Shown: positions 7,840-19,525 of the stretch, piece after piece | Numbering within the stretch: the stretch's first letter is position 1 | Layout of the letters: each line of letters opens with the position of its first letter | Assembly (NCBI GenBank): GCA_002699025.1 | Contig: PABA01000145.1 | Location: 1 to 64,000 of the forward strand | Length of the DNA: 64,000 bases | Reading direction: 5' to 3' | From: Sandaracinus sp. | GTDB lineage: Bacteria; Myxococcota_A; Polyangia; Polyangiales; Houyiibacteriaceae | Position numbers and translations under genes: made by a program | Notes under the pieces: model-generated | Told to the model about the DNA's origin: nothing | Databases searched by the model: none | The model's input: only the letters and a program-made list of their open reading frames with translations

Positions 7840-7943
7840 CGCACAGCCGCACAGCCGCACGGCCGCTCACCCGCACAGCCGCTCAGCCGCACAGCCGCAC
7901 AGCCGCACAGCCGATCAGCCGCACACTCGCTCACCCGATCAGA
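7840..7943. repeat. 13 x 8-bp minisatellite (CGCACAGC)
   Basis: Thirteen contiguous octamers, consensus CGCACAGC with variants such as CGCTCACC and CGATCAGC, fill 104 bases exactly. The last unit contains the TGA stop (minus strand) of the cupin gene at 7939-7941, so the array begins inside that gene's end and runs downstream. It lies between convergent genes. This is not CRISPR-like because the units are contiguous. Confidence 0.9.
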
Positions 7944-8658
7944 GCGCGGAGCGGAGGCCCGGCTCCGGGAGGCTGACGCTCAGCGCGAAGGACGTCTCCG
8001 CCGAGCGCACCGCATGCCAGTGGCCGCGGGGGAGGAAGAGGAGCGCGCCCGGCCTGAGGGTCCAGGTCTCGGCGCCGGGCCCGAAGGCAGCGTCCCAGCC
8101 CGCCCCCTCGCGGGGGCCCCACGCGACCTCGTCCCAGAGCCCCGCGGGCGGCTCGCCGTTCGCCTCGAGGCGCCAGCGGCGCACGCCGAAGAGCTGCAGC
8201 ACGAGCAGGCTCACGCCGTCGGCGTGGCGCGGCACCCAGGTCTCCGGGCCGTGGAGGAAGCCCGTGATGCCGGTCCCCAGCCCGCCGCCGAACCAGGCGA
8301 CGAGCGCCTCGTAGGCCTCGCGGCTCCGCCGGAAGTGACCCTCGAGGTGATCGATGCGCCACCAGTCGCCGGGCCCCGGCGCGAGGCTCCGGCGGCGCGG
8401 CGCCGGCAGGGGCTCGAAGGCGACCGGGCCGCGCGAACGAGCCCGCGCGCGGCGGACGCTCCGGCTGTAGCCCGCGAGCCACGCGCGCACGGCGCCGAGG
8501 TCGGCCGAAGGCGGCCCGACCCGGGCGAAGCGTTCGACGGCGCCCCGGACCATCAGGGGCCGCCGCTCCCGCCGCGCCCGCGAGAGCTCGGCGAGGGGGC
8601 GCGGCGCGAGGAGGGCGCGGAGCAAGGCCGCCCCCGCGCCCTCCTCCTCAGCGCACAT
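7939..8658 (-). CDS. Cupin/JmjC-type Fe(II)-dependent oxygenase of the RiPP locus
   Basis: A 239-residue protein with a JmjC/cupin-like fold, the family that includes 2-oxoglutarate-dependent hydroxylases. The metal-binding pair HxD is seen in VPRHADGVSLLVLQLFG near residue 150, and the second His in LFLPRGHWHAV near residue 212. The segment LMVRGAVERF near residue 35 matches the usual start of cupin_8 domains. It is last in a three-gene leftward operon: its start overlaps the stop of the ATP-grasp gene by 11 bases, implying translational coupling. The likely role is hydroxylation of an amino acid or peptide made by the two upstream enzymes. Product and substrate are inferred only from context. 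Confidence 0.8.
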   Translation of the reverse strand: MCAEEEGAGAALLRALLAPRPLAELSRARRERRPLMVRGAVERFARVGPPSADLGAVRAWLAGYSRSVRRARARSRGPVAFEPLPAPRRRSLAPGPGDWWRIDHLEGHFRRSREAYEALVAWFGGGLGTGITGFLHGPETWVPRHADGVSLLVLQLFGVRRWRLEANGEPPAGLWDEVAWGPREGAGWDAAFGPGAETWTLRPGALLFLPRGHWHAVRSAETSFALSVSLPEPGLRSAL

Positions 8659-9964
8659 GGATGCGGACCCGCTCGCGGACGCGACCGAGGAGCCGACGCG
8701 CCGCCTCCGCGTCCGCGCTCCGCGCCCACACCCCCGCCACGAAGGACTCCTCGACGTCGCCGCCGACCGGGCGGCCCTCCTCGGCCATGCGCCGGACGAC
8801 CCGCACGCCGGGCACGAGGAGCAGCCGCTCGAGACCCTCGACCGCCTCCAGCACGCCGCTCCGGGGGCTGAAGAGGAAGATCATCGCGTGGCGCTCGTCC
8901 GTGCGCGGCCCTCCCGGGAGCGCCGGCGTCTCGCCGAGGAGGAGCGCGAGCTCGAGCTCCGCCGAGTCCACGTCGAGGAAGGTGCGGAGCGAGTCCGTGA
9001 CGCAGCCGGCGCCGATGCGCGGGTTCACCTCGAGCAGCCGCGGCCCGCGATCGGGATCCCAGCGGAGCTCCACGTGGCAGAGCACGCGCCGCAGGCCGAG
9101 CGCCTCCACGCAGGCCGTGGCGTGCGCCTCGAGCTGCCGGAGCTCCGCCGGGGTGAAGCGCGCGGGCGGGCAGACCAGGAGGTGCTCGAGGACGGTGGCC
9201 GCGGTCTCCTCGACGTCGAGCTTGTCGTGCACGAGGAGGGGGACCACCCGATCGTCGAGGGCGAGGCACTCGACGCTGACCTCCCGGCCCGGGAGGTAGG
9301 CCTCCGCCAGCATGGAGCGCCGCGGGTCGAAGCGGCGCGCGACCCCGCCCTCCCGGACCTCGTGGGGCGCCATGCGGACGGGCGCGTGGTGCGCCCGCGG
9401 GAGCCGCTCGCAGGCCTCGCGGAACGCCGCGCGCGCCTGCTCGGCGTCGTCGCAGCGGTAGACGAGGCTCGCGCCCACGCCGGTGATCGGCTTGAGGATG
9501 CAGGGGAAGCCCACCTGCCGGGCCACCCGCTCGAGATCCGCCGGCGCCTCGACCAGCGCGAAGGGGACGTCGGGCACGCCGGCCGCGTCGAGGGCCTCGC
9601 GGGCGAGGAGCTTGTTCGTGGCGCGCCGGAGCGCGTCCCTCGAGGGCCCGGCGAGCCCCCGCTCGGCGCGGAGCGTGGCCACGTCGCCCGCGAGGAAGCC
9701 CACCTCGTGGAAGGGGCCGTAGGGACACGCGAGGGCGCGCACGGCCCAACGACGGTCGAGCTCGCCGAGCGCGGCGCGAAGCGCGGGGAGCGCCATGGAG
9801 GGGAGCTCGACGACCGCCGCGAGGCCGCTCCGATCGGTGGGCGCGGCGCCGATCGGGCAGAGGAGGATCACCTCCATGCCCCGCGCCCGGGCCGGCTCGA
9901 CGGAGGCGAGCGCCATCTCGGTCGAGACCGAGTCGACGTGGACCAGCGCCGGCGGGCGACTCAT
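8648..9964 (-). CDS. ATP-grasp carboxylate-amine ligase
   Basis: A 438-residue ATP-grasp enzyme, which forms an amide via an acyl-phosphate. It has the ATP-grasp features KPITGVGASLVYRC near residue 155, EAYLPGREVSVECLAL near 215-230 and the magnesium-binding VELRWDPDRGPRLLEVNPR near 295-315. Overall order (an N-terminal pre-ATP-grasp domain starting PALVHVDSVSTEMALA, then the grasp domain) resembles L-amino-acid ligases of the BacD/carnosine-synthase type. Its ATG overlaps the stop of the KamA-like gene by 4 bases (ATGA). In context it probably ligates the aminomutase product to a peptide side chain, terminus or another amino acid. The acceptor cannot be read from sequence. Confidence 0.88.
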   Translation of the reverse strand: MSRPPALVHVDSVSTEMALASVEPARARGMEVILLCPIGAAPTDRSGLAAVVELPSMALPALRAALGELDRRWAVRALACPYGPFHEVGFLAGDVATLRAERGLAGPSRDALRRATNKLLAREALDAAGVPDVPFALVEAPADLERVARQVGFPCILKPITGVGASLVYRCDDAEQARAAFREACERLPRAHHAPVRMAPHEVREGGVARRFDPRRSMLAEAYLPGREVSVECLALDDRVVPLLVHDKLDVEETAATVLEHLLVCPPARFTPAELRQLEAHATACVEALGLRRVLCHVELRWDPDRGPRLLEVNPRIGAGCVTDSLRTFLDVDSAELELALLLGETPALPGGPRTDERHAMIFLFSPRSGVLEAVEGLERLLLVPGVRVVRRMAEEGRPVGGDVEESFVAGVWARSADAEAARRLLGRVRERVRIHVR

Positions 9965-11088
9965 CCGTCCTCCCCGTCCGGGTAGTGGGAGACGATGCGG
10001 CCGGCCGCGTCGACCTCGTGCATCGGGGGGAGCGCCTCCGAGTCGCTGAAGGCGAGGAAGTCGACCGCGCGGTAGGGCGTCGTCGCGCGGATCCAGCGGC
10101 GCCCGGCGCGCTCGACGTGCTCGAGCTGCGCGCCGCGGCCGAGCCGGTGCTTTCCGACCGGCGTGACGTAGACGTAGTGCGGCGCCAGGGCGCCGGTGAG
10201 CGGCGCGAGCTCCTCGAGCAGGTCGAGGCCGCGCTGCACGGAGGTCCGGAAGTGCCGCGCGCCGACGACCGGCATGCAGTGGTAGAGGTAGTAGGGCGTC
10301 AGGCCGACGGCCGCGAAGGACTCGTAGAGGCGCCGGAGCGTGGCCGCGTCGTCGTTCACGCCCTTCAGCAGCGTCACCTGCGCGCGCACGACGACGCCGC
10401 GCTCGAGCAGGCGGCGGAGCGCGCGCACGTACGCCGGGTAGAGCTCGTCCGGATGGTTGATGGACACGGCGAGGGCGAGGCTTCGGCTCGCGGCCAGGTC
10501 CGCCGGGTCGAGGCGCTGGTAGGAGGCGAGCCAGTCGGCCATCGCGTCGTCGAGGAGCTCGGGGCGGAAGAGGAGGTTCCGCGTGCCGATGCGGAGCTGC
10601 CGGACGTGCGGGATGGCGGCGGCGCGGTCGAGGACGGCGCGCAGCAGCTCCGGGCGCACGAGCGGATCGCCCCCCGTGACGAGGACGATGCGGATGCGCG
10701 GATCGGCGGCGATGTAGGCGATGGCGCGGTCCACGTCCTCCGGGGTCATGGCGCGGCCGTCGCCGGCGAGCGTACGCGTCTTCTTGAAGCAGTAGCGGCA
10801 GTAGGCGCTGCAGTCGAAGTAGGGCGTCAGCACGGCGCGATCCTCGTAGATGCGCTCGAGCCCATAGATACCCCGGTTGTCCTTGCCCTCCTCGAAGGGC
10901 GTCTCCGTCCCGCCGTACTCCTCCAGCTCCTCGACCGAGGGCATGAACTGGCGCGCGACGCCCTCGGACCGGCGCATCAACCGCGTGACGTTGGCCGTGA
11001 GCTTCGCGCGAAAACGCGCCGTGACGTCGCGCCGGGTCGCCCCTCGCGCGGCGCCGCCTTCGACGACCGGCAACATCGTTCTTGACAT
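9961..11088 (-). CDS. KamA-like radical SAM aminomutase (lysine 2,3-aminomutase family)
   Basis: A 375-residue radical SAM protein of the lysine 2,3-aminomutase/EpmB family. The cluster motif is CSAYCRYC near residues 95-102 and TGGDPLVRPE follows. The PLP-lysine region reads YVYVTPVGKHRLG, where the Lys corresponds to the PGGGGK lysine of KamA, and YHCMPVVGARHFR corresponds to the conserved DxxxGxxHFR stretch. I chose the ATG at 11088 because GAGAGGA precedes it at good spacing; a GTG at 11121 is possible. The reaction is probably alpha- to beta-amino acid isomerisation, with lysine the default guess. It is first in the operon with the ATP-grasp and cupin genes. It is unlikely to serve EF-P, since neither efp nor epmA is present. 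Confidence 0.88.
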   Translation of the reverse strand: MSRTMLPVVEGGAARGATRRDVTARFRAKLTANVTRLMRRSEGVARQFMPSVEELEEYGGTETPFEEGKDNRGIYGLERIYEDRAVLTPYFDCSAYCRYCFKKTRTLAGDGRAMTPEDVDRAIAYIAADPRIRIVLVTGGDPLVRPELLRAVLDRAAAIPHVRQLRIGTRNLLFRPELLDDAMADWLASYQRLDPADLAASRSLALAVSINHPDELYPAYVRALRRLLERGVVVRAQVTLLKGVNDDAATLRRLYESFAAVGLTPYYLYHCMPVVGARHFRTSVQRGLDLLEELAPLTGALAPHYVYVTPVGKHRLGRGAQLEHVERAGRRWIRATTPYRAVDFLAFSDSEALPPMHEVDAAGRIVSHYPDGEDG

Positions 11089-11133
11089 GGAACCGTCCTC
11101 TCTCTCAGCTTGGCGAGCCACCCCGACGATTCG

Positions 11134-11168
11134 CCTGAAAAGCGCGCGGAACCGACCCTCGTTTCAGG
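11134..11168. promoter_or_regulatory. Inverted repeat in the divergent promoter region
   Basis: A perfect CCTGAAA (11134-11140) ... TTTCAGG (11162-11168) inverted repeat lies between the divergent KamA-like and DUF6445-like genes, within the only 88-bp gap that can hold both promoters. It could be an operator controlling both. No convincing sigma70 hexamers were seen. Confidence 0.35.
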
Positions 11169-11176
11169 GAGAAGAA

Positions 11177-11800
11177 ATGCGTAAGTCCGTCATCGTGATC
11201 GACGACTTCTACGAGGACCCGGACGCGATCCGGGAGCTGGCCCTCCGCCAGCGCTGGACGCGCAAGGAGGGGGCCACCTATCCGGGGCGGGAGGCGATCG
11301 TCCCCGGGCGCGATTGGAGCGACGCCCGGGCGCGGCTCCGGAGCGAGATCGACGAGCCCGTCGACGGGCCGGGCGAGAAGGACCCGCCTTTCCCGCAGGG
11401 GAAGTTCCGGCTCGCGCTCGCCTCGGACGCCGAGACGCGGGTGGATCGGGTGCACGTCGATCAGCAGCGCTGGTCCGGCGTCGTCTACCTCTCCCGGGAC
11501 CAGGACTGCCGCGGTGGGCTCGCCCTCTACCGGCACCGCCCCACGGGCTCGCTGACCTGGGACGAGCGCTGGTTCATGACGCACTACGGCCACCTCTACC
11601 TGCTGCCCGACGAGCAATTCCGAGAGGGCGTTCTCGCCTTCTTTCGTGACGAAGAGCAGTTCGAGCAGATCGGCCTGATCCCCATGGCCTACAACCGCGC
11701 CATTCTGCTCATGGCGCAGGTCTTTCACGGCACGGGCGAGGTCTTCGGAGACCGCGAGGAGCGCGGTCGCCTCACCCAGCACTTCGAGTTCTACGAGTAG
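11177..11800 (+). CDS. DUF6445-like putative Fe(II)-dependent oxygenase
   Basis: A 207-residue protein starting RKSVIVIDDFYEDPDAIREL, which resembles the DUF6445 family of small putative non-haem iron oxygenases. An HxD pair (RVHVDQQRWSGVVYLS, near residue 94), GGLALYRHRPTG (near 113) and a later His in MAQVFHGTG (near 185) could form a 2-His-1-carboxylate site. ATG 11177 is preceded by GGGAGAAGAA. It is transcribed divergently from the KamA-like gene and lies inside the RiPP locus, so it probably tailors the same product. Family assignment is from motif recall and biochemical function is inferred. Confidence 0.72.
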   Translation: MRKSVIVIDDFYEDPDAIRELALRQRWTRKEGATYPGREAIVPGRDWSDARARLRSEIDEPVDGPGEKDPPFPQGKFRLALASDAETRVDRVHVDQQRWSGVVYLSRDQDCRGGLALYRHRPTGSLTWDERWFMTHYGHLYLLPDEQFREGVLAFFRDEEQFEQIGLIPMAYNRAILLMAQVFHGTGEVFGDREERGRLTQHFEFYE

Positions 11801-11885: not shown

Positions 11886-12431
11886 ATGCGCGCGCTCCGG
11901 GCCGACGACGAGGCCGCCTTCCTCGAGGCCTGCCGCGACTCGACGGCCCTGCACCACCCCTGGGTCTCGCCGCCCACGGATCGCGAAGGCTTCGCCGCCT
12001 ACCTCGCGCGGGAGAGCGCGTCCTTCCGGCTGCTCCTGGTGCGCCGCCGGGAGGACGACGCGCTGATCGGCGTCTTCAACCTCAGCCAGATCGTGCGCGG
12101 CGTCTTCCGGAGCGCCTACCTCGGCTACTACGGCTTCTCCGCGACGACGGGCCGCGGCTACATGCACGAGGGCATGACGCTCCTGGTCCATCACGCCTTC
12201 CTCACGATCGGCCTCCACCGGATCGAGGCGAACGTGCGGCCGGAGAACCGCGCCTCCATCGCCCTGGTGCGGCGCTCCGGCTTCGAGCGGGAGGGCTACT
12301 CACCGAACTACCTCTTCCTCGACGGCGCCTGGCGCGACCACGAGCGCTGGGCGATCCGCCGCGAGATCTGGCGACCCAGCGAGGACGTCGAGGTCCTCGC
12401 CGCTCCCGAGGAGCCCGCCAGCGGGCCATAG
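11886..12431 (+). CDS. GNAT N-acyltransferase (RimJ/RimL type)
   Basis: A 181-residue GNAT protein that would transfer an acetyl group from acetyl-CoA to an amine, possibly an N-terminus. Family features are FLEACRDSTALHHPWVSPP, LIGVFNLSQIVRG, GYYGFSATTGRGYMHEGM (acetyl-CoA loop, near residues 80-97) and the IEANVRPENRASIALVRRSGF motif of the RimJ branch. The reading frame continues upstream of ATG 11886 through sequence resembling the usual strand 1 (LVRGPRCAMRAL) without an obvious start codon, so the true start may be non-canonical. Its last 132 bases overlap the convergent tfuA gene. It could acetylate the mature peptide or protect the host. Confidence 0.8.
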   Translation: MRALRADDEAAFLEACRDSTALHHPWVSPPTDREGFAAYLARESASFRLLLVRRREDDALIGVFNLSQIVRGVFRSAYLGYYGFSATTGRGYMHEGMTLLVHHAFLTIGLHRIEANVRPENRASIALVRRSGFEREGYSPNYLFLDGAWRDHERWAIRREIWRPSEDVEVLAAPEEPASGP

Positions 12432-13085
12432 GGCGTCGCTCCCCGTGACGAGGGAGAGCGCGAGCGCGGCGCCCCGGCGCTTCGGATCGTGCCGATGCGT
12501 CTGGAGCTCCCGGGCCAGGCGGCGCGCGCCCTCGAGGCTCGCCCCGGCCTCCCGCCAGCGCTCCAGGCAGCGGCCCGGCGTGCGCTCGAGGAAGTGGAGC
12601 GCCCGCGCCTCGGCGAAGCGCGCCCGCGCCTCGGCCTCCGCGAGGCGCCCGGCCTCCAGCTCGCGCCCGAGGGTCGCGCGCAGGTGCACGAGCGAGACCG
12701 TGAGCTCGCGCGCGCAGGCCTCGTCGTAGCCGACGGCGACCTCGCCGTCCGAGGTGAGCGTGCCGAGCCGATAGCCCGCGTGGACGGCGCCGACGCCCAC
12801 CATGCCCTCGCTCCAGCACTCGCTGGCCCGGAGCGCGCCCATGCTCGCCGCGCCGACCACCGACCAGCCGGCCCGGAGCAGCGCCCGGCATTCGGTGGGT
12901 GTGACGGCGAGGTGACTCGAGAAGAGCCCGTCGAGGATCAGCACGCGCCCCGGGGCGCGCTCGAGCAGGCGGTCCGCGTCCCCGCGCCGCATCGGCGGGC
13001 GCCACTCGGCGTCCACGCCGCGCCGGAGCGAGCGCGGGAGCGAGGGCCCGGCGAAGACGACCGGCCGCTCAGCCGCGCCGAACAT
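12300..13085 (-). CDS. tfuA: TfuA-like protein (YcaO partner)
   Basis: A 261-residue TfuA domain protein, the partner of YcaO enzymes in peptide thioamidation (thioviridamide-type RiPPs, methyl-coenzyme M reductase). The family core is easy to see: VVFAGPSLPR (residues 9-18), PPMRRGDADRLL, VLILDGLFSSHLAVTPTEC, then GAASMGALRASECWSEGM and VGAVHAGYRLG followed by the acidic DGEVAVGYDE. The ATG at 13085 lies inside the 3' end of ycaO (17-base overlap). In known thioamidation systems TfuA is thought to mobilise or deliver sulfide; no sulfurtransferase is visible here. Its 3' end overlaps the convergent GNAT gene. The C-terminal 60 residues are less conserved-looking. Confidence 0.92.
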   Translation of the reverse strand: MFGAAERPVVFAGPSLPRSLRRGVDAEWRPPMRRGDADRLLERAPGRVLILDGLFSSHLAVTPTECRALLRAGWSVVGAASMGALRASECWSEGMVGVGAVHAGYRLGTLTSDGEVAVGYDEACARELTVSLVHLRATLGRELEAGRLAEAEARARFAEARALHFLERTPGRCLERWREAGASLEGARRLARELQTHRHDPKRRGAALALSLVTGSDALWPAGGLLGSGEDLDVLAGSPDLAADRPALVVAPGAVEEEVVR

Positions 13086-14331
13086 CGCGCCCCCGCGCCG
13101 GGTCGACGAAGCGGTCCCAGAGGCCGGGCACGCAGACGTGCGCGACGGCGAAGCCCCCCGGGCCGGTCGAGAGGTCGGTGACGACGGCCCCCTCCGCGGC
13201 GGCGCCGAGCCGGTCCCGGAGCAGCCGGAGTGCTTCGCCGGCCGTGGGCGGAGGCGCGGGGGCCGGCGCCTCGAGGAGCGTCGAGGGAGGCAGGCGGCCC
13301 ACGAGCGCCTCCACCTCGCGGAAGCGGGCCTCGACGGTCTGCGGGTCGTCGGCCCAGCTCGAGGCGTGGCGCTCCAGGTCCTCGCGGCTGCCCTGGATGG
13401 CGACGGCGCGGCTCTGCACGAGCTCCCGGAGCGCGCGGAGGAGCGCGGCGGCGGGGTCGAGGTGGGCGCCCTGACCGGAGACGGCGAGGTGGTGCTGGCC
13501 GGCGCCGCGATCGAGCGCGAAGACCTTCACGACCGGCACACCGGAGCCCTGCGACTCGTGGCACCGCAGCCCGTGGCACCGCAGCTCGTGGCACCGCAGC
13601 TCGAGACAGAGCAGCTCGACGCCCTCCCCCTCGAGCCGCGCCGAGAGCAAGGCCGCCTCCCCGCCGAGGCCCGAGGGCGGGATCCGCGCCGGCCAGACGC
13701 CCTGGCCGAGCCGGGAGGTCACGTGGCGCTCGACCACCTCGAGGAGCCCGTGGAAGGTCGCCTCGGCGAGCCCGCTGCCCGCCGCCAGCCCGCTCGTCGA
13801 AGGCCGCACGGGCCGCGCCAGACCGGGCGGCGGGTGATAGGGGAAGAGCACCTCGGCCGCGGGCACCCAGGTCGGCGCGCCGTCCACGAGGCGCTGGCCG
13901 CGGACCCACTCGAGGGGCGCCGCCGGCGCCTCGACCCCCAGCTCGCGTGGCGAGACCAGGCGCTCTCCGGCCGCCTCGAGCGCGGCGACCGGCGCGCACC
14001 TCCGCTCCCGCGGGGCCGCCGCGGCGTGCCGCTCCACCGCCTCCATCAGCGCCGCCGCCCCCGCCTCCTCCCGCGTGCGCCCACAGCCCTGGACGCTCGT
14101 GTTCTGACCGGCGGGCGCGCCGGGCCGGACGGCGGCCACGACCGGGACCCCGAGCCGATCGAGATCGGTCAGCTCGGCCAGGCGCGTGACGCCGAGCTCG
14201 CGCCGCCTCGCCCAGGCGAGCGGGCCGACCTCGGCGAGGGAGCGCGCGCGCCAACCGGCGCCGAGCCGCGCATCCGCGCCCGGGAGCTCGAAGGCGCCGG
14301 GCGGGCGCGCGCGGTGGCCTTCAGCGCGCAT
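13069..14331 (-). CDS. ycaO: YcaO-domain ATP-dependent cyclodehydratase/thioamidase
   Basis: A 420-residue YcaO protein, which phosphorylates a peptide amide backbone with ATP so that an azoline or, with TfuA, a thioamide can form. Visible family elements are AGQNTSVQGCGRTREEAGAA leading into ALMEAVERHAA (the Mg/ATP acidic motif, about residues 75-108), then GLAAGSGLAEATFHGLLEVVERHV (about 175-198). The C-terminus (VDPARGRDVRRG) lacks the PxPxP end typical of azoline-forming YcaOs. The segment LRCHELRCHGLRCHESQG holds three LRCHE/G-type tandem heptads, an unusual Cys/His-rich insertion that could bind metal. Its start overlaps the carbamoyltransferase stop by 11 bases. Confidence 0.93.
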   Translation of the reverse strand: MRAEGHRARPPGAFELPGADARLGAGWRARSLAEVGPLAWARRRELGVTRLAELTDLDRLGVPVVAAVRPGAPAGQNTSVQGCGRTREEAGAAALMEAVERHAAAAPRERRCAPVAALEAAGERLVSPRELGVEAPAAPLEWVRGQRLVDGAPTWVPAAEVLFPYHPPPGLARPVRPSTSGLAAGSGLAEATFHGLLEVVERHVTSRLGQGVWPARIPPSGLGGEAALLSARLEGEGVELLCLELRCHELRCHGLRCHESQGSGVPVVKVFALDRGAGQHHLAVSGQGAHLDPAAALLRALRELVQSRAVAIQGSREDLERHASSWADDPQTVEARFREVEALVGRLPPSTLLEAPAPAPPPTAGEALRLLRDRLGAAAEGAVVTDLSTGPGGFAVAHVCVPGLWDRFVDPARGRDVRRG

Positions 14332-17300
14332 CGGCCACCGCGTTGAGATAGCGCTGCCCGTGGAGCGCCGTCAGCCAGGAGAGGATCATCGAGCGGCGCG
14401 CCTCGGCCGCTGGCGACGCGGCGAGGCCCTCCGCCACCGTGCCCCCGCGCTCGCACACGCGGAGCACCGCGGCGACCTCGGCGGGCACGACCTGGGCCGC
14501 GCGACCGCTCCCCTGCAGCGTGCACGCCTCGGCGCCCCCGCCGAGCTCCGAGCGGAGCCGCAGCCCCGGCGCGAGGCGGAGGCGCGCGTCCGGGCCGATC
14601 TCCGCGGGGGCGCGCGGCCGCACCAGCCGATCCTCGAGGACCAGCGCGTCGAGGCCGCTCCCGAGGAGCACGTCGAGGGCCTCGAGGGGCGTCTCCACGA
14701 GCGGCTCGCCGCGCCGGTTGAAGGAGGTGTTGAGGAGGACCGGCACGCCGATGCGCTCCCCGACGAGGTGGAGGAGCCGGTGCCAGCGGGGGTGGCTCCG
14801 GGCGGTGACGGTCTGCACGCGCGCCGTCCCGTCCACGTGGCAGACGGCGCCGAGGAGCGGGCGCGCCTCCGGGCGCACGCGGACGACGCGCAGCATGTAG
14901 GGGGACGCGCCGTCGAGCTCGAAGTAGCGCGCGGCGTGCTCGAGCGGGACGACGGGGGCGAAGGGGCGGAAGTCCTCCCGGTACTTCACCTGACGGTTCA
15001 CGCGGCGCCAGGTCGAGGCGTCGCGCGGATCGGCGAGGATGGAGCGGTGCCCGAGGGCGCGCGGGCCGAGCTCGGCGCGCCCCTCGAACCAGCCGACGAT
15101 GGCGCCGCCCGCGATCCGCTCGGCCACGTCCGCCAGGTCGACGTCCGAGACCTCCACGCGCTCCGCCCGGGCCCGCAGCGCGAGCTCCACGTCCGCCGGC
15201 CCGTAGCGGTGGCCGAGGCCGTCGTCCGGGGCGGTGGCCGGGGCCGGCGCGTGGACGCCGAGCGCGTGGCTCGCCGCGAGGGCCGCGCCGACGGCCGTGC
15301 CCCCGTCGTGGCTCGCCGGGAAGAAGAAGCAGCGCTCGGCGCCCCGGGCCTCGACCAGGCGCTGGTTGAAGCAGCTGTTCAGGGCGAGCCCGCCCGTGAA
15401 GACGATGGCCTCGAGGTCCGTGGCGCGCCGCGCCCGCTCGACGCGCTGGAGGAGCGCCCGCTCGAAGTCGGCCTGGACGCGGGCGGCGAGGTCGCGGTGC
15501 GCCATCGGATCGGCGGGCGGATCCCGCCGCGCCTCGCGGAGCTTCCACGCCGTGGTGAAGCGGAGCAGCCCGTCCGGGCCCTCCTCGAGCAGGCTCGGCC
15601 CGTAGCGCTCGGCGTCGCCGTGGGGGGCGAGCCCCATGAGCTTCCCCGAGGCGTGCCAGGAGCCGAAGACGTAGGCGCTGACGGCCGCGTAGGTCTCGCC
15701 GAGGGAGCTCGAGCCGCAGCGCACGTTGAAGGAGTCGGCGGTCTCGCGGGAGAGGAGGCGAGGCGGCTCCCCGCGGCGAAAGGCGTAGGCGGAGAGGACG
15801 TGGAGCGCCGGGCGGCGCGGGGGGACGGCGGCGAGGTAGTCGCGGAGCGCCGGGCCCCGGAGGACGAGGTCGTCCGCGCCGACCGTGCTCCCGCCCGAGC
15901 CATCCGCGACGACGACGAGCGCGGCGTCGAAGGGGGAGGCGGCGAAGGCCGCCCAGGCGTGCGCGAGGTGGTGGGAGACGAAGAAGCTCCGCGGGCCGAG
16001 CGGATCGAAGAGCGCGAAGCCCGCCGTGGCGAGCGGCTGGGAGAGGCCGACCCAGCCCGGGAGGAGCGGCTGGCTGTTGAAGGCGAAGGCGTCGACGTCC
16101 TCGGGCCGGAGGCCGGCGGAGTCGAGGCAGTAGCGGGCCGCCTCCTCGGCGCCGAGGGCGCCCTCGCCGTCGTGCTTGACGCGGGTCAGGCGCTCGAGGG
16201 GGATCGCCACCTCGGGCCGGCCGTCCCGGAGGAGGCACGCCGACCCGTCGTGGCTCGCGGCGAGCCCGAGCACGCGCAGCGGGCGGCGCCGATCTCGCGA
16301 CCGAGGGGAGGCGGAGGCGCGGGAGGCAGCCGACGGCTGAGCAGGCGCGGAGGCGCGGGAGGACTCCGGCGCGCCGGGAGAGTCCGATGCGTGCGCGAGC
16401 TCCGCGCCGGATGCCACGAGGGCGACGCTCCGGGCCGATCCCCCGAGGGTGAGCTCCACGAGGAGCGTCTCGCCGGGCTCGGCCTCGACGTCGAGCGCCT
16501 CCCAGCCGCGCGCCGCGCCTTCGGCCCGTAGCCTGCCGTCGCCGTCGCGCACACGGAGCGCGACCTCCGGCCCCGCGTCGACCCAGCCGAGCGCCCGCCC
16601 GTGGCGGCGCACGCAGGCGACGACCGTGACCCGTCGATCGCGCGCGTGCAGAGCGAAGCGGCGCGTCTCGCCGAGCGCCGGCCGCGCCTCGCTCCCGGCG
16701 AAGGGGCGGAGGGGGCCGTCGACGAGCTCGCGCCCGGCCACGCCGTCCAGCGGGCGCGCCTGGGCCAGGAGCGCGGCGCGGACGAGGGCCGGCGTCGGCT
16801 CGAGCCCGGCCTCCAGGAGGGCCTGGCAGACGCGCGCGGCGAGGCCGGTCGCCACGGCCACCGCGCCGGAGGTCCCGTCGAGCGCGCCGAGCCCACCGCC
16901 CGGCATGCGCGCGGCCCAGCGCCGCTCCGCGACGAAGAGCTCCGGCTTGCGGGGCGCCGCGTCGGCGCCGCACCAGGAGACGGGACGCCCGGCCTCGTCG
17001 CAGACCCCGACGGCGAGGACCGCCTCGCAGCTCGCCGGGAAGCGGAGGCGACCGGGGCCGTCGTGCCCGGCCGCCGCGAGGGTCGCGACGGCATGCGGGG
17101 CTGCGTCCGCCCACTGCGTCACCAGCGCCCGCCCGACGTGCGCCAGGTGGTGGTCCTCCGGCCCGGACCAGGCGAGGCCGAGCACGTGCGCGCGCCCGTG
17201 GGTCTCCCCGAGCGCGCGGATGCGCTCGCCGATCCCCTCGACGGTCATGCCCGCGTGGGAGGCGTGGACGAGCTCCGCGTCGGGCGCCAAGCCGAGCGGC

Positions 17301-17533
17301 CCGCCCGGCCGGCCCGCGGCCTCCTCGCCCTCGCCGACGATCGACGCGACCCGCAGCGCGTGGCTGCGCGGGGCCTCTCCCTCGCGCGCGTCCTCCACGC
17401 GGGCGCGCCCGCCGAAGGACCAGCCCGCGGGGAGGTCGTCCGCGAGGAGGAGCACGCGCGCGCCCCGGCCGGTGCGCGACCGGAGCGGGAAGGCCTCGCG
17501 GGGGGCCACGGTCGACGTCTCGCGCTCAGCCAC
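14321..17533 (-). CDS. Tripartite fusion: subtilisin-like domain, carbamoyltransferase, RRE-like domain
   Basis: A 1070-residue protein with three parts. Residues 1 to about 300 resemble a peptidase S8 fold: VLLLADD (candidate Asp32/33), SHALRVASIV (His58) and LDGTSGAVAVATG (Ser222). The oxyanion Asn position reads AAGHDG (His157), so activity is uncertain. From about 412 to 970 it is a NodU/CmcH O-carbamoyltransferase: LGLAASHDGSACLL, SHHLAHAWAAF (metal site, about 520), FTGGLALNSCFNQ, FEGRAELGPRALGHRSI and NTSFNRRGEPLVETP. Residues about 978-1065 (RLRLAPGLRLRSELGGG ... VVPAEVAAVLRVCERGGTVAE) have the pattern of a PqqD/RRE winged helix, the leader-binding module of RiPP enzymes. The GTG start overlaps the MNIO stop by 8 bases. 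I know of no described protein with this architecture. Confidence 0.88.
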   Translation of the reverse strand: MAERETSTVAPREAFPLRSRTGRGARVLLLADDLPAGWSFGGRARVEDAREGEAPRSHALRVASIVGEGEEAAGRPGGPLGLAPDAELVHASHAGMTVEGIGERIRALGETHGRAHVLGLAWSGPEDHHLAHVGRALVTQWADAAPHAVATLAAAGHDGPGRLRFPASCEAVLAVGVCDEAGRPVSWCGADAAPRKPELFVAERRWAARMPGGGLGALDGTSGAVAVATGLAARVCQALLEAGLEPTPALVRAALLAQARPLDGVAGRELVDGPLRPFAGSEARPALGETRRFALHARDRRVTVVACVRRHGRALGWVDAGPEVALRVRDGDGRLRAEGAARGWEALDVEAEPGETLLVELTLGGSARSVALVASGAELAHASDSPGAPESSRASAPAQPSAASRASASPRSRDRRRPLRVLGLAASHDGSACLLRDGRPEVAIPLERLTRVKHDGEGALGAEEAARYCLDSAGLRPEDVDAFAFNSQPLLPGWVGLSQPLATAGFALFDPLGPRSFFVSHHLAHAWAAFAASPFDAALVVVADGSGGSTVGADDLVLRGPALRDYLAAVPPRRPALHVLSAYAFRRGEPPRLLSRETADSFNVRCGSSSLGETYAAVSAYVFGSWHASGKLMGLAPHGDAERYGPSLLEEGPDGLLRFTTAWKLREARRDPPADPMAHRDLAARVQADFERALLQRVERARRATDLEAIVFTGGLALNSCFNQRLVEARGAERCFFFPASHDGGTAVGAALAASHALGVHAPAPATAPDDGLGHRYGPADVELALRARAERVEVSDVDLADVAERIAGGAIVGWFEGRAELGPRALGHRSILADPRDASTWRRVNRQVKYREDFRPFAPVVPLEHAARYFELDGASPYMLRVVRVRPEARPLLGAVCHVDGTARVQTVTARSHPRWHRLLHLVGERIGVPVLLNTSFNRRGEPLVETPLEALDVLLGSGLDALVLEDRLVRPRAPAEIGPDARLRLAPGLRLRSELGGGAEACTLQGSGRAAQVVPAEVAAVLRVCERGGTVAEGLAASPAAEARRSMILSWLTALHGQRYLNAVADAR

Positions 17534-18386
17534 GGGCGCCCTCGCGAAGCCGGGGGGCCCAGCCGGCGCGCTCCAGGGCCGCCTCGATGCGCGCGAGGTC
17601 CCGCTCGATGGCCTCCCGATCGAGGCCCACGCCGATCTCGTAGGTCACGGCGCGGAGCCGGGGCGCGCGGGCGGCGACCCGCTCCACGAGCTCGAGGACC
17701 TCCGGCAGGATCGGGTCGCTGTGGCTGTCCACGTAGCGCCGCGGGTCCTCCTCGGAGACGCGCCCGCCCGCGACGTGGAGCTCGACCACGGGCTCCATGG
17801 GGAAGGCGTCGGCGACGGCGAGCGGGTCGGCCCCGCTGCAGAGCGCGTAGGAGTAGACGTGGCTGAGGTCGGCCACGAGGTCGCAGCCGGTGCGGCTGGC
17901 GAGCGCCCGGAAGTAGGCGCCGAGCGAGAGCTCCCCGGCGGCGATGGTGAAGGAGGGGTTCTCGGCGGCGAAGGGGACGCTCCCCCGCCGGAGCATCTCG
18001 CGGACGCCGGCGGCGACGTGCTCGACGCCCTCGCGCGAGAGGAGGGGCGCCGTGAAGTAGGGGAGCGCCCGCGGGCCGAGCGACCAGATCCCGACGTCCT
18101 CGCAGCTCCAGAGGGCCCCGAGGGCGCGGGAGATCCCGTCGAGCTCGGCGAAGCGGCGGAGGTCCGGCCCGCCTGGGTCCGCTGGGGCGACGGCCGAGAG
18201 GTGATGCACGATCGGCAGGGGGCCCGCGCAATCGCGGCGGAAGGCGTGGGCCTCCTCCTCGCTGCGGAGGCTGACGATGGAGAGGTGCGAGAGCGCCGGC
18301 CGCAGCCCCGCGCAGAATCCCACGAGGCCCCCCGGGTACTCGTCCGCGTACTGGGCGTCGAGGCCCACGCCGACCCGGGGGCTCAC
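17526..18386 (-). CDS. DUF692/MNIO multinuclear iron oxidase
   Basis: A 286-residue TIM-barrel protein of the DUF692 (MNIO) family, which uses two or three irons to modify RiPP precursors, as in MbnB (methanobactin), TglH and ApyH. Likely metal ligands are all present: VHHLSAV (about residue 80), AENPSF (about 140), ADLSHVYS (about 170), VELHVAGG (about 200), VDSHSDPI (about 218) and TYEIGVG (about 257). The last motif has Gly where many members have ErD. GTG start with a 4-base GTGA overlap to the stop of the partner gene, so expression is coupled. The substrate is presumably the adjacent 70-residue peptides; since these lack Cys, chemistry must differ from MbnB or TglH. Confidence 0.9.
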   Translation of the reverse strand: MSPRVGVGLDAQYADEYPGGLVGFCAGLRPALSHLSIVSLRSEEEAHAFRRDCAGPLPIVHHLSAVAPADPGGPDLRRFAELDGISRALGALWSCEDVGIWSLGPRALPYFTAPLLSREGVEHVAAGVREMLRRGSVPFAAENPSFTIAAGELSLGAYFRALASRTGCDLVADLSHVYSYALCSGADPLAVADAFPMEPVVELHVAGGRVSEEDPRRYVDSHSDPILPEVLELVERVAARAPRLRAVTYEIGVGLDREAIERDLARIEAALERAGWAPRLREGARG

Positions 18387-19108
18387 GCGCCGACCTCCAG
18401 CGCCGCGACGCGCACCACGCCGTCGCCGTCGACCGTGGCCACCGTGAGCGAGGTGCCTTCGCCGACCGGGCTGCCCGGCTCGAAGCCCCCGCGCTCGACC
18501 CGGCGCCAGGCCTCGACCAGGCGCCAGCCGCTGAGGAGGGTCTCGGTGGCGCGCGCCTCGGGGAGCGCGAGGGCGGGGCCGCGGGCGGGCCAGGGGCTCG
18601 GCAGGGTGGGCCTATTGGCCAGCGCCGAGAGCACGGCGGCGAGGCGCACCAGGAGGCGCGTCGGCTCGCTCAGGGTCGGGCGCGACACCAGGTGCAGGCA
18701 GAAGCTCTCGCCGATGGTGCGCCCGGCGCCCTCCCAGAAGGCCGGCGCGTCGAGGAAGCTCGCCAGGGCGGCGTCGATCTCGGCGTCCGGGACGAGCCGC
18801 GGCAGGAGCGGGAGCTCGCGCGCGAGGTGCCAGCGGAGCTGCCTCCGCCGGGCGCGCTGCTCGAGGCCGAGGAGCCTCGGGTCCAGGTCGCGAAGGAGCG
18901 CGAGGGTCGCCCGCGGGAGGGCGTCGTCGGTCGCCGCGAGGGCGAAGGCGGTGGCGGCGGCCGCGGGGGAGTAGAGCAGCCGCAGGAAGAGCGTGGAGCG
19001 CGCGGCGTGGTCGTCGCGGCGCAACAGCTCGCGGAGGCGGAGCGTGGTCGGGCCCGGATCCTCGACGGGATCCGGGCCCGGCCCCGGCAGCGACGTCAGT
19101 CCTGCCAT
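18383..19108 (-). CDS. MNIO partner protein (leader-binding type, inferred)
   Basis: A 241-residue alanine/leucine/arginine-rich, mostly alpha-helical protein lying directly between the precursor peptides and the MNIO gene, the position occupied by the MbnC/TglI/BufC-type partners that dock the leader. No catalytic motif is visible. A C-terminal beta-like segment (SLTVATVDGDGVVRVAALEV) could be part of a docking domain. Its ATG lies within the 3' end of the second precursor gene (13-base overlap, the ATG being read from GAATGG), so it is translationally coupled to the peptide. The sequence itself is not clearly recognisable, so the role is assigned from position. Confidence 0.7.
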   Translation of the reverse strand: MAGLTSLPGPGPDPVEDPGPTTLRLRELLRRDDHAARSTLFLRLLYSPAAAATAFALAATDDALPRATLALLRDLDPRLLGLEQRARRRQLRWHLARELPLLPRLVPDAEIDAALASFLDAPAFWEGAGRTIGESFCLHLVSRPTLSEPTRLLVRLAAVLSALANRPTLPSPWPARGPALALPEARATETLLSGWRLVEAWRRVERGGFEPGSPVGEGTSLTVATVDGDGVVRVAALEVGA

Positions 19109-19308
19109 TCCTTCGCCGACGAGACGACGCGAGCCGACAGCTCGGTGAGGGCGCCGACGTTGAGGTTGACCTGCTTCAGGTAGTCCTCGGCGTGATCCCG
19201 GGCGAGCAGGCGGATCATCGCCTCCCGGAACTCGCGATCCTCATCGATCAGCGCGGTGATCTCCTCGAAGGAGATTCCCTTCAGCTTCTTGCTTCCCACG
19301 AGCACCAT
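19096..19308 (-). CDS. RiPP precursor peptide, copy 2
   Basis: A 70-residue peptide identical to copy 1 at 45 of 70 aligned positions without gaps. The leader is charged and helical (SKKLKGISFEE, EDREFREAMI, DHAEDYLKQVN) and the conserved tail is LSARVVSSAKEWQD. No Cys and no Thr in the tail; Ser58, Ser63, Ser64, Lys66, Trp68 and C-terminal Asp70 are the candidate modification sites. Immediately followed by, and overlapping, the MNIO partner gene. The ribosome-binding AGGAG (19316-19320) is built from the Gln-Glu codons and stop of copy 1. No known leader family matched confidently; the EDREFREA stretch is vaguely Nif11-like. Confidence 0.85.
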   Translation of the reverse strand: MVLVGSKKLKGISFEEITALIDEDREFREAMIRLLARDHAEDYLKQVNLNVGALTELSARVVSSAKEWQD

Positions 19309-19312
19309 CGGC

Positions 19313-19525
19313 CTACTCCTGCCATTCCTTGTTCGAGGACACGACCCGCGCGGAGAGCCCCGCGAGGACGCGCGCGTTCACGTTGACCTCACCGAGGTAG
19401 TCCTCGGCGTGATCCTTCGCGATGTGCTTGATCAGGGCCTCGCGGAACTCCCGATCCTCCGCGATGACCTCTGCGAGATCCTCAAAACTCAATCCCTTGA
19501 GCTTCTTACTCAATGCTTCCACCAT
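19313..19525 (-). CDS. RiPP precursor peptide, copy 1 (operon leader gene)
   Basis: A 70-residue peptide, first gene of the leftward operon, 4 bases before copy 2. The leader contains LSKKLKGLSFEDL, EDREFREALI and DHAEDYLGEVNVN, and the tail reads LSARVVSSNKEWQE. Compared with copy 2, positions 58-64 and 66-69 are invariant while 65 (Asn/Ala) and 70 (Glu/Asp) vary, and the stretch 51-56 just before the tail is divergent, as expected for a leader-core junction. A strong GGGAGGT ribosome site lies 6 bases before the ATG. No cysteine occurs. It is divergent from the Eis-like gene, so its promoter must lie in the 68-bp gap or within that gene. Confidence 0.88.
   Translation of the reverse strand: MVEALSKKLKGLSFEDLAEVIAEDREFREALIKHIAKDHAEDYLGEVNVNARVLAGLSARVVSSNKEWQE

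Follow-up and report, generated by a model that had tools for sequence, protein, structure and literature searches.

We analysed a three-gene module in a 64,000-nucleotide stretch of Sandaracinus sp. DNA (contig PABA01000145.1, positions 1 to 64,000), called the window hereafter. All three genes lie on the minus strand. They encode a KamA-type radical S-adenosylmethionine (SAM)/pyridoxal phosphate (PLP) 2,3-aminomutase of a distinct subfamily (9961–11121 from a GTG start, 9961–11088 from an ATG), an ATP-grasp amide ligase with the C-terminal L-amino acid ligase (LAL) domain LAL_C2 (8648–9964), and a JmjC_2 Fe(II)/2-oxoglutarate oxygenase-like protein (7939–8658). The aminomutase was assigned by Pfam, NCBIfam, alignment, tree and fold, the ligase by Pfam, alignment and a Protein Data Bank (PDB) profile match, and the oxygenase by Pfam and an iron triad kept in its sole relative. 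The genes overlap and are translationally coupled: 4 bases are shared by the KamA and ATP-grasp genes, and 11 bases by the ATP-grasp and oxygenase genes. The codon-position GC of all three is typical of coding sequence, and the GC content at the third position (GC3) is 0.94–0.96. According to the Pfam matches, overlaps and GC3, the three genes are located as in the original prediction, which had named them in outline as aminomutase, ATP-grasp and cupin-fold genes; the cupin is specifically of the JmjC_2 type.

The start of the aminomutase was considered at two positions. The purine-rich stretch gagagagaggac is located upstream of the ATG at 11088, and the aminomutases of relatives start close to the same position. 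Therefore, this ATG is more likely than the GTG at 11121. The 88 bases from 11089 to 11176 separate it from the ATG of a divergent DUF6445 gene (11177–11800, plus strand, Pfam), and this intergenic segment is likely to be a promoter region.

The aminomutase subfamily

The KamA-like protein matches the Pfam family Radical_SAM with 51.4 bits (cut-off 29.5). Its predicted fold (predicted local distance difference test, pLDDT, 79) is matched best by lysine 2,3-aminomutase (LAM; PDB entry 2a5h), with a Z score of 24.3 and a root-mean-square difference of 6.0 over 317 aligned residues; the Z score of the runner-up entry is 13.3. The best NCBIfam model is the generic AblA_like_2 (187.6 bits), and all the NCBIfam models stay below their cut-offs. 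The score is 162 bits for TIGR00238 (curated cut-off 199.2), 148.5 of the required 525.4 bits for TIGR03820 (lysine 2,3-aminomutase), and 140.1 of 369.3 bits for TIGR03821 (EpmB), the lowest among six KamA-type models. Two relatives, L045 and L052, reach 185.0 and 171.6 bits against TIGR00238, and the top model of L045 is glutamate 2,3-aminomutase with 200 of 650 bits. Thus, the TIGR00238 scores below the cut-off indicate a related, yet separate, subfamily. The identity of the window protein is 31% to Escherichia coli EpmB and 34% to the arginine 2,3-aminomutase BlsG.

Of the 41 KamA-type rows in the tree, the 18 that belong to the module group in a single clade with a support of 100/100. The clade is apart from the 23 other rows, several of which are long-branched (E. 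coli EpmB, BlsG, a Rhizobium AblA-like protein, three KamA-type proteins of the source genome, 16 from relatives of the order and an archaeal one). The fourth KamA-type gene of the source genome (L012, C16:50232–51257) is very divergent; it scores 123 bits against TIGR00238 and has a long branch in the tree.

Residues were mapped by alignment to 2a5h. The CxxxCxxC cysteines (C104, C108 and C111) and Lys324 are kept in all 18 subfamily proteins, and Lys324 is presumably the PLP lysine, as it is aligned with Lys337 of LAM. We take Arg134, Asp293, Asp330 and Lys337 to be the functional residues of LAM under these numbers, with Asp293 binding the side-chain amine of lysine. The position of Asp293 is Met in 18 of the 18 subfamily members; it is Asp in E. 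coli EpmB, in BlsG, in the Rhizobium AblA-like protein and in the KamA-type protein on contig C5 of the source genome. The position of Arg134 is Lys in every member. That of Asp330 is Val in 17 members and Cys in one, which is less informative because this position varies in EpmB and BlsG too. A C-terminal stretch of the YLDGDD type is conserved in the subfamily. As the lysine-binding acid is replaced by Met throughout, β-lysine, which the original prediction had suggested as the product, is unlikely to be formed, and a non-basic amino acid is the likelier substrate.

The ATP-grasp ligase and the JmjC_2 protein

The ATP-grasp protein matches ATP-grasp_4 (49.1 bits, cut-off 27) and LAL_C2 (39.6 bits, cut-off 29.4) of Pfam. 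Glu312, Asn314 and Arg316 are invariant in 18 aligned rows. The four top PDB matches of its profile are the L-amino acid ligase BL00235 and three BacD sequences. The scores are far under the cut-offs of the named families (35.6 of 850 bits for BacD and 22.7 of 840 bits for DdaF). The protein is predicted to be an enzyme of the L-amino acid ligase type, with a putative role in peptide-bond formation.

The pairwise identities of the KamA and ATP-grasp proteins were compared using 136 pairs from 17 genomes (the window and the 16 relatives with a ligase). The correlation is 0.93, partly due to shared species descent, and none of 5000 permutations gave a value as high.

The third protein matches JmjC_2, a family of the cupin fold, with 44.2 bits (cut-off 22). 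The putative iron triad H145-x-D147...H215 is kept in L052, a Pseudolabrys (alphaproteobacterial) metagenome-assembled genome (MAG), and the protein is a putative 2-oxoglutarate-dependent hydroxylase. Its AlphaFold model (pLDDT 41.5) is too poor for use. The ATP-grasp proteins of the window and L052 are sisters with a support of 100/100, and the JmjC_2 gene comes next after both ligase genes.

Relatives and their neighbourhoods

The aminomutase scan of 84,980 species' genomes gave 11 loci, 10 at 51–57% identity and one, the archaeal MAG L055, at 31%, which was placed outside the subfamily. A profile made from the window protein and the 10 relatives was then run on 398 Bacilli genomes, and 13 matches at an E value of 1e-90 were obtained, six already known and seven new. 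The same profile found the window's own match only in 377 Myxococcota genomes, and the match of L052 only in 337 genomes of its class. In total 17 loci were collected; L081 repeats L054 and is uncounted. The flanks are unequal, being about 8 kb in the seven new Bacilli loci and short on at least one side in L049, L050 and L053. As the 10 loci of the first scan were found via peptide patterns, for example YCRYCFKK, the conservation of such stretches is partly a selection effect. The plasmid records contain distant KamA matches only (six records, 31–34% identity).

The 17 relatives span Bacillota, Myxococcota, Chlamydiota and Pseudomonadota. According to tblastn, the ATP-grasp gene adjoins the aminomutase gene in 16 of them, the exception being L077, and the two genes overlap by 4 bases, as in the window, in eight of the 16. 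A gene of the major facilitator superfamily (MFS) is located nearby in 15 of the 17; it is absent in L052 and L053, and is truncated where the contig stops in L049. KamA, ATP-grasp and MFS genes occur together in 14 relatives. The JmjC_2 gene is found in L052 alone (1/17), and the oxygenase is thus a non-fixed part of the module. The claim that a KamA-type aminomutase is coupled to an ATP-grasp amide ligase, together with a putative oxygenase, in a portable module is borne out.

Extra tandem ATP-grasp genes were observed in three Tumebacillus-like genomes (L054, L078 and L079), where two or three ligases accompany KamA and MFS (L078 9143–14921). These additional ligases group on a branch of their own (92/100), and they hint at longer peptides. 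A gene of the histidyl-tRNA synthetase type (HisRS or HisZ; the family was checked in L078) is located upstream of the module at L078 6384–7634 and also in the L054 and L046 regions, and is probably chromosomal context. In L077 (5919–9788), a gene of the glyoxalase/bleomycin-resistance type lies upstream of KamA and is a possible self-protection gene.

Proposed pathway and alternatives

We consider that the module is a self-contained, horizontally scattered operon, in which a β-amino acid would be formed and built into a di- or oligopeptide by the ATP-grasp enzyme, independently of a non-ribosomal peptide synthetase (NRPS) and with hydroxylation in this organism; we put the probability at roughly 0.6. 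The KamA-type enzyme would shift the amino group of an α-amino acid, probably a non-basic one, from C2 to C3. The ligase would activate a carboxylate as the acyl phosphate and couple the β-amino acid to another amino acid or an amine, and a small β-amino-acid peptide would result. The JmjC_2 oxygenase may hydroxylate the monomer or the peptide in the window genome and in the alphaproteobacterial MAG. In most relatives the MFS transporter would export the product, and the extra tandem ligases of some relatives could lengthen the peptide.

Several observations weigh against this proposal. Substrate specificity is not fixed by one altered residue. The JmjC_2 part is known from two genomes only, the window and L052, whose proteins share 31% identity. 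The KamA tree pairs L052 with L051 and not with the window (98/96), which argues against a strictly joint inheritance of the three genes. No MFS gene is present among the 10 window open reading frames scanned around the module, a subset of those in the window. Finally, L077 (genome G564) has KamA and MFS genes and no ATP-grasp gene within about 8 kb on either side, so that export of a bare β-amino acid, or a ligase located elsewhere, is possible.

The last case leads to a rather unlikely alternative, in which a free β-amino acid (an osmolyte, signal or antimetabolite) is the main product, and transport tagging or some other small step is left to the ATP-grasp enzyme. β-Amino acid osmolytes do exist, and L077 would fit such a product. 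However, the ATP-grasp gene is adjacent in all the other relatives, half of them with the 4-base overlap, and the two proteins have diverged together to the degree described above. It is also unlikely that the KamA-type enzyme performs other radical chemistry, for example a lyase, an epimerase or a migration reaction with a substrate that is larger or has already been ligated. The lost pocket acid, the change of Arg134 to Lys, the conserved YLDGDD-type C-terminus and the lack of any NCBIfam KamA model at its cut-off would be consistent with this. However, the PLP lysine and the CxxxCxxC motif are invariant in the 18 proteins, and the match to the LAM fold is far above the rest.

The neighbouring RiPP cluster

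Between the module and the next minus-strand genes, the DUF6445 gene is followed by a GNAT acetyltransferase gene (11886–12431, plus strand, Pfam); neither has a match near any of the 17 relatives. A separate std-type cluster for a ribosomally synthesized and post-translationally modified peptide (RiPP) occupies 12300–19525 on the minus strand. It was recognized by Pfam and NCBIfam matches, by the precursor ends and by the published std cluster (PMC13174530). Its genes, all on the minus strand, are two precursors ending in SSNKEWQE (19313–19525) and SSAKEWQD (19096–19308), a partner protein (18383–19108; assigned by position, with no Pfam match), an MNIO enzyme (17526–18386), a subtilase–carbamoyltransferase fusion (14321–17533), YcaO (13069–14331) and TfuA (12300–13085). 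The GNAT and TfuA genes converge, and their 3' ends share 132 bases (12300–12431).

These genes match the std cluster of Streptomyces thermodiastaticus part by part, including the precursor end SNKEWQE (PMC13174530). According to the accessible part of that paper, the std pathway was reconstituted in vitro and consists of Asn thioamidation, Lys carbamoylation, follower removal and double hydroxylation. Genes for an aminomutase, an ATP-grasp ligase or a JmjC_2 protein are absent from the cluster as described there, and the words 'aminomutase' and 'ATP-grasp' have no occurrence in the main text as available (PMC13174530). The std cluster thus resembles the neighbour and not the module. The second precursor of the window has Ala at the Asn thioamidation site and Asp in place of the last Glu, and it may yield a thioamide-free product or act otherwise. 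Both positions are given as 97–99% conserved in the StdA orthologs in the accessible text (PMC13174530).

The original prediction had the module making a β-amino acid, perhaps β-lysine, and attaching it to the core peptide of this neighbour, where it would be hydroxylated. About 1.2 kb separates the two operons (from the KamA start at 11121 to the TfuA end at 12300). Moreover, in the Myxococcota sample the window gave the sole matches found for the KamA subfamily and for the MNIO (for the latter, at E 1e-40), so two features that are rare there stand together in the window. As the MNIO is found only in the window, genomes with std genes with and without the module give an uninformative comparison in Myxococcota. 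On the other hand, YcaO, TfuA, the fusion, MNIO, the partner and the precursors have no match at E 1e-4 in the flanks of any of the 17 relatives, and StdF has none at E 1e-5 in the 10 module genomes of the first scan, in a search that had no positive control. The check proposed at the time, for the three-gene module in genomes without the RiPP genes, gave a positive result for the first two genes (16 of 17 relatives); the oxygenase gene is present in one of 17. Two plus-strand genes lie between the operons, and Met occupies the position of the lysine-binding acid. Because no std genes are near the relatives and the std pathway was reconstituted with no such enzymes, according to the text available (PMC13174530), a role of the module in RiPP tailoring is not supported, and we regard attachment to the core peptide as very improbable.

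The EF-P system of the source genome

The module was also likened to the modification of elongation factor P (EF-P), in which 2,3-aminomutation, ligation and hydroxylation follow in the order EpmB, EpmA and EpmC. This chemical logic is shared, as it is by several systems. EpmA is a paralogue of lysyl-tRNA synthetase, and its target is a protein. The window KamA lies under the EpmB cut-off and is devoid of the substrate Asp of EpmB. The statement that no EF-P gene is present holds for the window and fails for the genome, in which efp, with a PGKG loop, is located on contig C61, directly next to epmA (335 bits; EpmA cut-off 286.9). The original prediction had named, as one refuting result, a best alignment with EpmB together with linked efp and epmA genes elsewhere in the genome; EpmB ranks last of the six models, and the two genes do lie together on the other contig. 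Three further KamA-type genes, including canonical KamA genes, are present elsewhere in the source genome. Because the genome has its own efp–epmA pair and other KamA genes, the module is an addition to the EF-P system and not a substitute. No EF-P match was found in the flanks of the 17 relatives; partial matches of the EpmA query occur in L046 and L080 and probably represent an aminoacyl-tRNA synthetase. Despite the common order of chemistry and the resemblance to E. coli EpmB, β-lysylation of EF-P or another protein is the least probable explanation, in view of these genes, of a ligase of the small-molecule LAL type and of an exporter beside the module in most relatives.

Comparison with known systems

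By analogy, the closest match in logic is pboE–pboI of Pseudomonas syringae pv. phaseolicola. According to the accessible part of the report, this single operon encodes an MFS protein, a LAM-like radical SAM enzyme, a LAL-like ATP-grasp enzyme, a 2-oxoglutarate–Fe oxygenase and a second MFS protein (PMC8473136). Unlike the module, it belongs to a 16-gene NRPS/polyketide synthase cluster, and its oxygenase is Ido-like and not JmjC_2, the likeness being one of description (PMC8473136).

A second case is the blasticidin-type cluster on a plasmid of Kitasatospora sp. NBC_00039, where blsG, an ATP-dependent carboxylate–amine ligase gene and an MFS gene are close together. It is like the pathway proposed for the module in that a KamA-type enzyme provides a β-amino acid, with an ATP-dependent ligase and an MFS protein, for a small molecule and not a ribosomal peptide. 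The blasticidin ligase joins β-arginine to a nucleoside, and this acceptor comes from extra genes. In contrast to the window protein, BlsG retains the Asp at the Met position, and the two ligases are barely alike (the best local match covers 42 residues, E 4e-4). No JmjC_2 gene is annotated within the stretch of the cluster examined. BacD of bacilysin biosynthesis, BL00235 and DdaF share ATP-grasp_4 and LAL_C2 with the window ligase, and a ligase is paired with an exporter in the bacilysin system. In contrast to these L-amino acid ligases, the partner of the window ligase is an aminomutase.

No paper joining a 3-aminomutase and an ATP-grasp enzyme is among the matches listed for the open-licence literature, which is weak as evidence of novelty. 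The apparent novelty lies in the minimal stand-alone form, in its occurrence in four phyla and in the loss of the substrate acid from the subfamily. Tentatively, the module may stand for a hitherto undescribed, widely scattered class of β-peptide pathways independent of NRPS and ribosome, in which a KamA enzyme for a non-basic substrate and one to three ATP-grasp ligases would yield exported di- to oligopeptides containing a β-amino acid, with JmjC hydroxylation in some lineages. As the RiPP cluster is told apart from its unrelated neighbour, a wrong product assignment is avoided. If the proposed pathway is true, the KamA subfamily would have a new substrate class, in addition to the lysine, arginine and glutamate of the 2,3-aminomutases named by the models used here, and two or three genes would suffice as a minimal route to β-amino-acid peptides.

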